Of a stretch of DNA of 64,000 nt, positions 49,110 through 51,519 are shown piece after piece. The notes below the pieces were generated by a model, which ran no database searches, was not told the DNA's origin, and was given only the letters and a program-made list of their open reading frames with translations. A program made the translations under genes and the position numbers. The stretch is taken from positions 944,146 through 1,008,145 of the forward strand of contig CP082927.1 of the NCBI GenBank assembly GCA_023038255.1, read 5' to 3'. Origin of the DNA: Candidatus Peribacteria bacterium (GTDB taxonomy: Bacteria; Patescibacteriota; Gracilibacteria; Peribacterales; Peribacteraceae). Numbering within the stretch: the stretch's first letter is position 1; each line of letters begins with the position of its first letter.

Positions 49110-49451
49110 ATGAACATCCTCTATCGCATTGTGACCGCATTGGTTCTGGATACCGGTATTGCCGTGACTATTGGAAACAGTATTGCCTATGCCAGAGCGG
49201 AGCTGACCGGTATGGGAACTGATCTCCTGCTCCACAATGCCGCTCTCCCGACGCCTCCGGAAGCGATTGTGCATGTGTATGAAAGAGCCTATGCAGCAGA
49301 GGACATGGCAATTGGCATGCTTCTGATTCTCCTCGGTTTTTGTTTGCACGCGCTGATGGTAGCCCGCGAAGAACGCAGAGTCCCGATTACCGTCGTATCC
49401 CGCAAGCGCTTCCAGACGCCTCGCTGGTTCTGGATTGAAATGCGTATCTGA
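49110..49451 (+). CDS. Small two-helix membrane protein, unknown
   Basis: A 113-residue protein. Helix 1 is about 6-28 and helix 2 about 66-86 (MAIGMLLILLGFCLHALMVA). The loop between is outside or inside the cell (AELTGMGTDLLLHNAALPTP). The C-terminus is basic (RKRFQTPRWFW). No family recognised. It has its own promoter and the terminator at 49463. Confidence 0.68.
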   Translation: MNILYRIVTALVLDTGIAVTIGNSIAYARAELTGMGTDLLLHNAALPTPPEAIVHVYERAYAAEDMAIGMLLILLGFCLHALMVAREERRVPITVVSRKRFQTPRWFWIEMRI

Positions 49452-49462
49452 GATGATAAAGC

Positions 49463-49492
49463 AAAAGGCGCCCCGCAAGCGGAACGCCTTTT
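49463..49492. terminator. Bidirectional terminator
   Basis: AAAAGGCG...CCCGC / GCGGAACGCCTTTT stem, AA loop. It ends in TTTT on the plus strand (for 49110) and TTTT on the minus strand (for the tiny frame at 49510). Confidence 0.82.
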
Positions 49493-49509
49493 AGAATGCA
49501 ATGTAGTGC

Positions 49510-49548
49510 TTAGCAGCAGCCACCGCATCCGCCATCAGTCTTTGTCAT
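49510..49548 (-). CDS. Candidate 12-residue Cys-rich peptide
   Basis: Frame MTKTDGGCGGCC then TAA. Three Cys and four Gly occupy the last seven positions. Evidence that it is a gene and not chance: a promoter (TAGACA-16-TATACT) ends 33 bases upstream; the leader TTTCATTTCTTTTCCCCCATCTCCC is the pyrimidine type seen before other genes here; and an intrinsic terminator starts 18 bases after the stop. A peptide of this kind could bind metal or be a leader for regulation. Alternatively the unit is a small RNA and the frame is accidental. Confidence 0.4.
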   Translation of the reverse strand: MTKTDGGCGGCC

Positions 49549-49581
49549 GGGAGATGGGGGAAAAGAAATGAAAACATCCAC

Positions 49582-49632
49582 AGTATACCTACTGGCGGAA
49601 CTTTGTCTATCACTCTCGCTTGACGAGTGATA
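49582..49632 (-). promoter_or_regulatory. Promoter with overlapping inverted repeat (possible operator)
   Basis: Minus strand: -35 TAGACA (49604-49609), 16-base spacer, -10 TATACT (49582-49587). TATCACTC (49608-49615) and GAGTGATA (49625-49632) form an 8+8 inverted repeat touching the -35 box. It could also be the stem that ends the pyrK transcript, though no T-run follows. Confidence 0.55.
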
Positions 49633-49706
49633 ACGATGGACCAAGCAGGATTTCCTATCCTCGCGCATTTTCAAAAAGCATTCAAGAAAATGGTCTTCTT
49701 TCTTTG

Positions 49707-50573
49707 TTACTTCGCACCAAATTCATGCTTCTTTCCCAGGTCATCACGGTGGTATGTCCCAAATTCATTGAGCTTCAGAAGAACATCATTCTTCACAACC
49801 GGCCCCTCCGTACACATACGGATGCCCAGAGGATCAATCACGCAGTTTCCGCATAGTCCGAATCCGCACTTCATGTAGCGTTCCATAGAAAGCTGAGCCG
49901 GAACATTGTGTGCGGCAGCAATCTCGGAAATGCGCTTGAGCATCATCTCCGGTCCGCACCCAAAAATCTGATCAATAGGATCACATTCCCCCTTCTTCAG
50001 CTTCTTTCCCTTTTCGGGTACCGGACAGCTCGCGAGCAGTTTTTCCAGTACCTCGGTATTGAACCCCTTGTATCCGACGGAACCATCGTTGGTCGCAATG
50101 TGCAGGGAAACGTGTGGCAGTTTTTCAAACTCTTCCAGGTACAGAAGATGCTCTTTGCCGCGCGCACCAACAATCACTTCCAGGGTACAGCCGTGACCAA
50201 CTGTACTGGCTGCAATGAAGTACATGGGAGCCGCACCATAACCTCCTGCAACGAGCACAATGTGCTGGCCGGGTTTCCACTCGTAGGACGTTCCAAACGG
50301 GCCGCGGAGCCCCACCAAATCCCCTACCTGACACTTTGCCAGCTCTTCCGACATGTCACCGACTGCGAAGAAGGTAATCTTTGTTTCCGCGCCATCGTCA
50401 TACGCAACGCTCATCGGATTTTCATCCACTCCGGGAAGCCACACCATCACGAACTGTCCCGGTTTTGCACCGAGCGATCCATCGAACGTATAGGTCCGCA
50501 CCATCTCCGTTTCCTGCTTGATGTGTTTGATGCGATACGTGCGCGGGAGCTGTGATTGAAGCTGGATAGCCAT
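49707..50573 (-). CDS. pyrK: Dihydroorotate dehydrogenase electron-transfer subunit
   Basis: A 288-residue ferredoxin-reductase-like protein. FAD domain (1-100), NAD domain with VLVAGGYGAAPMYFIA, and the 2Fe-2S cysteines of YMKCGFGLCGNCVID followed by a Cys at MCTEG. It passes electrons from dihydroorotate oxidation in PyrD to NAD+. The start at 50573 was chosen over a frame extension. It starts five bases from the pyrD stop, so the two are one operon, in the order pyrD-pyrK. The insertion EKGKKLKKGECDP in the NAD domain is unusual. Confidence 0.93.
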   Translation of the reverse strand: MAIQLQSQLPRTYRIKHIKQETEMVRTYTFDGSLGAKPGQFVMVWLPGVDENPMSVAYDDGAETKITFFAVGDMSEELAKCQVGDLVGLRGPFGTSYEWKPGQHIVLVAGGYGAAPMYFIAASTVGHGCTLEVIVGARGKEHLLYLEEFEKLPHVSLHIATNDGSVGYKGFNTEVLEKLLASCPVPEKGKKLKKGECDPIDQIFGCGPEMMLKRISEIAAAHNVPAQLSMERYMKCGFGLCGNCVIDPLGIRMCTEGPVVKNDVLLKLNEFGTYHRDDLGKKHEFGAK

Positions 50574-50577
50574 GAGA

Positions 50578-51519
50578 TTACGGACGGGAAGTAAGTTGCT
50601 TGTGCATGCCACCAATCATATCGCTCACCTCCCACACTCCTTCGTTCGTGCACCAGAGCTGCATTTCGTCACAGATTTTCTGGAAGACATCGATTCCGCG
50701 TGCGGAGAGTGCGGTGCCAACGCCAATAAGCGAGGCGCCCGCCAGCATCAGTTCAAGAGCATCTTCGCCTGTGTATACGCCTCCCGTTCCGATGATCGGC
50801 AACTTTCCTTCCGTTGCAGCGTAGACATCAGCGGTGCAGCGAACAGCGATGGGCTTGATGGCACGACCCGACATTCCACCGGTCTTGTTTGCCAGGATCG
50901 GCATGCGGCTGCGGAGGTCGATCGCCATGCCCGGACCGACGGTGTTGATAAGCGTAAATCCGTCAGCACCGGCTTCGGCACAGGCACGCGCAATAGCTCC
51001 GATGTTTTCGACGTTTGGGGACAGCTTGATGAAGACCGGCGTTTTTCCGGATACTTTCTTCACCGCCTTTGTCACACTCGAGGCATCCGCCGCACTACAT
51101 GCAAACGGGCGGCCGAATTCGTCTTCAATGTTCGGGCAGCTGATGTTCACTTCCAGGAAATCCACCCCGAGCGGCAGAATTGCCTCCGCAGTCAGTGCAT
51201 AGTTTTCGATCGATTCCGCAATGATGTTGCCGATAAGCGGCACAGGCTTGTCTTTGTTATATGCACCAATCTCCTCTCTCGCCTTTTCGGGTCCGGCATC
51301 CGGCACACCAACTGCATTGAGCGTCCAGTAATCCGTCGAGATGATGGTCGGGTTTCTGTGACCTTTGTGTTCGTGGAGCCACAGAGATTTTGTGGTGATG
51401 CCTCCTGCTCCGTTCTCTGCGCAATACTTCCAGCTCGAGGACGTAATTCCCATAATCCCGGACGCGAGAACAGTCGGGTTTGAGAAGTCGACACCGAGGA
51501 TGGTTTGGGAGAGGTTCAT
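50578..51519 (-). CDS. pyrD: Dihydroorotate dehydrogenase, class 1B catalytic subunit
   Basis: A 313-residue FMN-binding TIM barrel. It oxidises dihydroorotate to orotate, the fourth step of UMP synthesis. Key features: start NLSQTILGVDFSNPTVLASG, NISCPN, the Lys/Asn strand VFIKLSPN and GMSGRAIKPIAVR, and IIGTGGVYTGEDALELMLAGA for FMN phosphate. The partner PyrK makes it class 1B. The start is the ATG at 51517-51519 with leader CCGGTATAGTTTTTCC. Other de novo pyrimidine genes except pyrG are not in view. Confidence 0.95.
   Translation of the reverse strand: MNLSQTILGVDFSNPTVLASGIMGITSSSWKYCAENGAGGITTKSLWLHEHKGHRNPTIISTDYWTLNAVGVPDAGPEKAREEIGAYNKDKPVPLIGNIIAESIENYALTAEAILPLGVDFLEVNISCPNIEDEFGRPFACSAADASSVTKAVKKVSGKTPVFIKLSPNVENIGAIARACAEAGADGFTLINTVGPGMAIDLRSRMPILANKTGGMSGRAIKPIAVRCTADVYAATEGKLPIIGTGGVYTGEDALELMLAGASLIGVGTALSARGIDVFQKICDEMQLWCTNEGVWEVSDMIGGMHKQLTSRP

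Follow-up and report, generated by a model that had tools for sequence, protein, structure and literature searches.

What could be the role of a transcription unit whose frame counts only 12 codons? The question is raised by a locus on the minus strand of the window (the whole stretch of 64,000 nucleotides analysed here), where the frame MTKTDGGCGGCC, preceded by a promoter (TAGACA-16-TATACT) and a leader and closed by a strong terminator, forms a self-contained unit. The original prediction, which also included an inverted repeat overlapping the promoter, was borne out, since all of these parts were found at their place on the minus strand, with a predicted transcript of about 115 nt. The repeat additionally displayed a CIRCE form, which had not been recognised earlier. 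The features of the locus are the following.

49607..49633, minus strand: CIRCE-type element (putative HrcA operator), TTATCACTC-GTCAAGCGA-GAGTGATAG, overlapping the -35 hexamer
49604..49609, minus strand: -35 hexamer TAGACA (promoter scan, 10/12 together with the -10 hexamer)
49582..49587, minus strand: -10 hexamer TATACT, spacer of 16
49549..49575, minus strand: pyrimidine-rich 5' leader without Shine-Dalgarno motif; a similar leader precedes most units
49510..49548, minus strand: micro-ORF MTKTDGGCGGCC, 12 codons followed by TAA
49462..49493, minus strand: intrinsic terminator, hairpin of 14 pairs with a T-rich tail
49707..50615, minus strand: pyrK (dihydroorotate dehydrogenase B electron-transfer subunit; PF10418), upstream and conserved neighbour, a separate gene
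49110..49451, plus strand: convergent ORF of 113 aa beyond the terminator, without Pfam match

As judged from the sequence, the transcript would start at position 49575. The micro-ORF reads ATG ACA AAG ACT GAT GGC GGA TGC GGT GGC TGC TGC TAA (49548-49510) and codes for a peptide of 12 residues, in which three cysteines lie close together amid glycine. In the 301 bases scanned, one promoter-like site (the one scoring 10/12) was found against a mean of 0.3 in shuffled sequences, and two terminator-like matches, nested, were recorded against a mean of 0.3. The unit is far beyond chance because the whole of it recurs in relatives (see below). As the next ORF past the terminator is convergent, nothing is co-transcribed behind the peptide frame; weak homologues of this 113-aa ORF adjoin some of the other units.

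CIRCE is the operator of the heat-shock repressor HrcA and its consensus is composed of 9-bp arms round a 9-bp spacer (TTAGCACTC-N9-GAGTGCTAA). The window repeat, TTATCACTC-N9-GAGTGATAG (49633-49607), which overlaps the -35 hexamer, has this form when set against the consensus as commonly given: its arms TCACTC/GAGTGA are one base off per side, with a further one at the outer end. The form of the repeat points to an operator specifically of the HrcA/CIRCE type, to which HrcA is predicted to bind. The genome of the window (1.24 Mb in one contig) contained six DCACTCN9GAGTGHNA sites, versus one match of the reversed control. Besides the window site, there is one ahead of each of hrcA, dnaK, clpB and a clpC-like gene, and the sixth stands before a pair of 88- and 126-codon genes. 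HrcA itself is encoded in the same genome (PF01628 at C1:935045-935446, E 1.7e-22, protein checked). Likewise, the CIRCE pattern was present in 71 of the 74 genomes of the family and an HrcA match in 68 of the 74. In the stretch fetched for groESL of the window's genome (L315, G000:C1:632800-636500), no CIRCE was detected by the pattern used. With the known HrcA/CIRCE regulon (groE, dnaK, hrcA and clp operons) the unit shares a CIRCE-type operator over the promoter, a genomic HrcA and sister sites at hrcA, dnaK, clpB and the clpC-like gene, but its target is a monocistronic Gly/Cys micro-ORF. The regulon is of a known kind; an effector of the Gly/Cys type is new to it.

Two other small-gene loci with CIRCE were encountered. 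The site ahead of the 88- and 126-codon genes is located at L280:2601-3289 (G000:C1 about 288100-288790); the 126-aa protein has no Pfam match and both genes are possible further members of the heat-shock regulon. Genome G059 (L043, minus strand, C5 near 22190) displayed a second CIRCE-driven small gene, coding for a zinc-ribbon-like protein of 48 aa (MRKIYQCQDCGHEY...) with two CXXC pairs.

Recurrence of the unit was examined at the DNA and pattern levels. A DNA search of 58 genomes uncovered a 72%-identical unit over about 125 bases in one of them (G029) and shorter pieces in others. The pattern CIRCE-N40..70-ATG-N3..33-GGNTGYGG gave 27 matches in 25 of the 74 family genomes, versus a single one for the reversed control pattern. 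Pattern searches of these 74 genomes, together with loci from the DNA and CIRCE searches, were filtered for units with two or more Cys, a Gly+Cys share of 30% or more, no more than 40 residues and an ATG 30-85 bases past CIRCE. This provided a set of 36 non-redundant CIRCE-driven units from 35 genomes, with 34 distinct peptides of 9-29 residues (e.g. MIGGESGCGGCC, MVTGGGCGGCC, MTGGGKGGCGGCCGCC, MCTCGGGCCGK and MISGPGCGSCGFGPGCGSCGFGPGCGSCS); G059 and G060 hold two further CIRCE units besides these 36. The best-scoring -35 hexamer was situated in or on CIRCE in all 36 units, being TAGACA in 22, TTGAGA or TTGCGA within the spacer in 12 and others in two. A simple scan detected a terminator-like hairpin in 29 of the 36 (shuffle mean 1.1), and the remaining seven displayed, by eye, interrupted stems with T runs. 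The layout of own promoter, ORF and terminator is therefore also that of the relatives. CIRCE spacers are regarded as unconstrained in sequence; by eye, the 9-base spacer begins with GTCAA in 11 of the 36 units, window included, and holds the -35 hexamer in another 12.

Half of the family genomes (37/74) displayed a Gly/Cys micro-ORF with CIRCE, and 46/74 when pyrK-adjacent copies without CIRCE were added. No copy was found in 28 of the 74, so the gene is not universal. The check that the original prediction had suggested, a search of the relatives for the frame, thus gave recurring Gly/Cys frames in family genomes, and its proposal of a regulated frame so short that annotation could overlook it is supported, the frame being conserved in relatives. 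The heat-shock control site together with the recurrence in many family genomes makes the product look like a real stress peptide. Outside the family, 279 genomes of the class yielded three pattern matches, one at groES and two without Gly/Cys peptide in the stretch displayed. A scan of 84,980 species recorded the Gly/Cys micro-ORF in at least nine records among the 119 stretches listed; eight of these nine were named Peribacteria, Peribacteraceae, Peribacterales or Peregrinibacteria and one simply 'bacterium', and the rest of the 119 were nearly all groES, hrcA or chance frames. Among the matches listed, those of the same pattern scan in other phyla likewise preceded mostly groES and hrcA, or were unrelated frames. 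Rarer unit-bearing records beyond this lineage may exist besides the matches listed.

Gene order provided a further way to follow the unit. In 28 of the 36 units, pyrK lies upstream on the same strand within about 415 bp; it is farther upstream in one more and convergent downstream in one. Because of this adjacency, the pyrK flanks were inspected in genomes without a unit. The gene was found in 59 of the 74 genomes and stretches were taken from 29, of which 26 were without a unit so far. A Gly/Cys micro-ORF occurred on the pyrK strand in 11 of these 26 genomes, and none was found on the opposite strand in the 29 stretches. The operators of the pyrK-adjacent copies were of several sorts: CIRCE in G059 and G060, a decayed CIRCE in G075, and, in five genomes from two genera (G019, G078, G004, G085 and G086), a promoter with a non-CIRCE palindrome, TTGACAATTAGTTTAGTTCTAAACTATACT or a near variant. 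Peptides behind this palindrome have only 8-10 residues (MTGPGCGC, MTGGCGCK). The copies in G021, G068 and G089 had no recognisable operator. In G089 (L340 about 190-300), the CIRCE-less unit MSDGHCNCLGGGRCNCKKCNCS displayed a long imperfect inverted repeat, CAACATCATC...GATGACGTTG, over the -10 region, which is perhaps a third operator type.

Since in two genera the gene has kept its position although its palindrome is another one, it is the peptide, and not the operator, that is conserved, and the gene does not exist for the sake of HrcA. The second operator, AGTTNAGTNCTNAACT, also precedes a nitroreductase gene beside msrA (G019) and an ABC transporter (G004). These two non-peptide sites compare with two control matches in the 74 genomes, so that a link to electrophile or oxidative stress is only a hint.

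Over the family, the peptides vary between 8 and 29 aa and keep their composition (44% Gly, 25% Cys). The cysteines are clustered and the spacing between them is near random, without strict CXXC, although CGC, CC and CXXC motifs occur. Cysteine is the last residue in 22 of the 34 distinct peptides (8.7 expected), and an N-terminal M-x-GG is present in 16 of the 34. Variable length, kept composition, near-random Cys spacing and frequent C-terminal Cys fit a bulk thiol or metal function rather than a fold. With a probability of roughly 0.6, we consider the unit to be a protein-coding micro-gene of the HrcA regulon in Peribacteria, repressed by HrcA and induced by stress, whose cytosolic peptide would bind soft metals and/or serve as a sacrificial thiol. 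It is composition and regulation that suggest this thiol/metal-binding role. The metal binding put forward in the original prediction is plausible.

For the window unit, HrcA binding, induction and translation are predicted from the letters of the DNA. In unstressed cells, HrcA sitting on CIRCE would cover the -35 hexamer. Folding stress would draw chaperones off HrcA and the operator would be freed, whereupon an mRNA of about 115 nt would be made and terminated. Translation from the leader without Shine-Dalgarno motif would then deliver the 12-residue cytosolic peptide, which would most likely act in bulk via its thiols, by binding soft metal ions, be they toxic metals or the zinc, copper or iron that damaged proteins release, and/or as a sacrificial thiol during the repair of damaged proteins. 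A broader proposal is more tentative and, in our opinion, has about one chance in four: Peribacteria may own a ribosomally encoded minimal thiol, made of Gly/Cys peptides of 8-29 residues down to MTGPGCGC and MTGGCGCK, that would replace glutathione, bacillithiol or phytochelatin in these pathway-poor bacteria and be wired to whichever stress repressor is available (mostly HrcA, but in two genera a different repressor that binds a palindrome).

Bacterial metallothioneins (SmtA, MymT) and phytochelatins are among the nearest comparators. Shared traits are a very high Cys content, a small size, an apparent stress control, the absence of a signal sequence and the CGC, CC and CXXC motifs. The peptides described here are, however, much shorter (8-29 aa) and have glycine instead of mixed residues between the cysteines, and their control is of the HrcA type and not by a metal sensor. 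Nor did they match metallothionein or other family models: no match was obtained in Pfam for six peptides of 22-29 aa, or in NCBIfam for ten peptides of 21-29 aa, with E up to 1 in both cases. These searches took peptides of at least 20 residues, a limit below which the 12-aa window peptide falls. PDB sequences gave no match for one 29-aa peptide, and nothing on HrcA-controlled cysteine peptides or heat shock in Peribacteria was found in the open-access literature searched. The proteome of five Peribacteria genomes was described as unusually cysteine-rich (PMC4736985); the words 'heat', 'chaperone' and 'small protein' are absent from the main text of that paper.

Among bacterial heat-shock regulons this one ranks with the best studied, and such a gene adds to it an extremely small, non-chaperone effector, in an uncultured lineage whose regulation is hardly known. 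It also illustrates that genes of 8-16 codons can be recognised with confidence from operator, promoter, terminator, synteny and codon evidence together. Should the proposed function in thiol or metal chemistry hold true, the peptides would represent a counterpart of glutathione or phytochelatin that is encoded by a gene.

Membership in a chaperone and protease regulon, along with the common M-x-GG N-terminus (16/34) and the Cys often placed last (22/34), could also suit a regulatory or signalling peptide that addresses one partner (a chaperone, a protease or a repressor) and tunes the stress response, its cysteines acting as a redox switch. We hold this to be unlikely. With 8-29 residues and a varying sequence, little is kept beyond composition. 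Moreover, G019 has both HrcA and a CIRCE-dnaK, yet its peptide promoter uses the other palindrome; because of this operator swap despite HrcA, the peptide is no fixed partner of HrcA control. The GroEL tails, too, are ordinary ones. A link to their Gly-Gly-Met ends was considered and rejected, as 30 family loci and five further stretches displayed GGM-type tails, one of them cut short.

A precursor of a ribosomally synthesised and modified peptide (RiPP), in which the Gly/Cys stretch would be the core on which enzymes encoded elsewhere act by cyclisation or heterocyclisation, is improbable. Thiazole-forming RiPPs typically have Gly/Cys-rich cores, a composition comparable to that observed here, and the enrichment of C-terminal Cys also speaks in its favour. 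Yet forms of 8-16 residues are too short for a leader peptide, the conserved neighbours are pyrK/pyrD, and within the window no modification enzyme was seen beside the unit.

In favour of a protein-coding micro-gene, the codon evidence is as follows. Across the 36 units, Gly+Cys reached 69% (0.69) in frame, whereas the two remaining frames had 3% and 2%. All four Gly codons were used (GGC 102, GGT 111, GGA 38, GGG 14), as were both Cys codons (TGC 112, TGT 36). Five pairs, when pooled, displayed 19.5 synonymous changes over 66.6 sites versus 9.5 nonsynonymous changes over 215.4 sites, the choice of pairs (same length, identity of 70% or more) favouring low nonsynonymous values; the three within-genus pairs had 9.5 synonymous versus 1.5 nonsynonymous changes.

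These figures bear directly on the suggestion that the RNA itself is the product, i.e. an HrcA-controlled small RNA with an incidental ORF. The short predicted transcript (about 115 nt), its strong terminator and a pyrimidine-rich segment common to many units would be in keeping with it. The small RNA that had been envisaged as an alternative is nonetheless improbable as the main product, because of the one-frame Gly/Cys bias and the synonymous codon exchanges; stretches between stop and terminator further differ widely among units, the pyrimidine leader is also found ahead of ordinary genes, and Rfam gave no match over the window unit.

Attenuator cysteine leader peptides are a known system, and they share with the unit a micro-ORF and a run of Cys codons shortly before a hairpin; but a leader peptide sensing cysteine or glycine supply, the other role initially put forward, is highly improbable and was rejected because no gene follows that could be attenuated, the ORF having, in relatives too, its own regulated promoter and its own terminator, past which nothing is directly co-oriented and the next gene in the window is convergent.

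In the window, Shine-Dalgarno-like motifs precede few starts, namely those of 9 of the 54 predicted ORFs, some of these being false, and pyrimidine-rich leaders are present ahead of several ORFs. A table of PMC10783764 places Peribacter riflensis among Shine-Dalgarno-scarce organisms without conserved CCUCC. Start selection in this lineage looks worth study. When formulated as a regular expression, the pyrimidine leader was not enriched before ATG in the window (8 occurrences versus 4-10 for other triplets), and the pattern is therefore not usable as a gene finder. The same kind of leader, without CIRCE, was observed in G005:C22 (L023 about 1525-1670), ahead of a gene coding for a small, acidic, Cys-rich protein (MTDCDCGTEKCATCDKCPTCEECECETG...).
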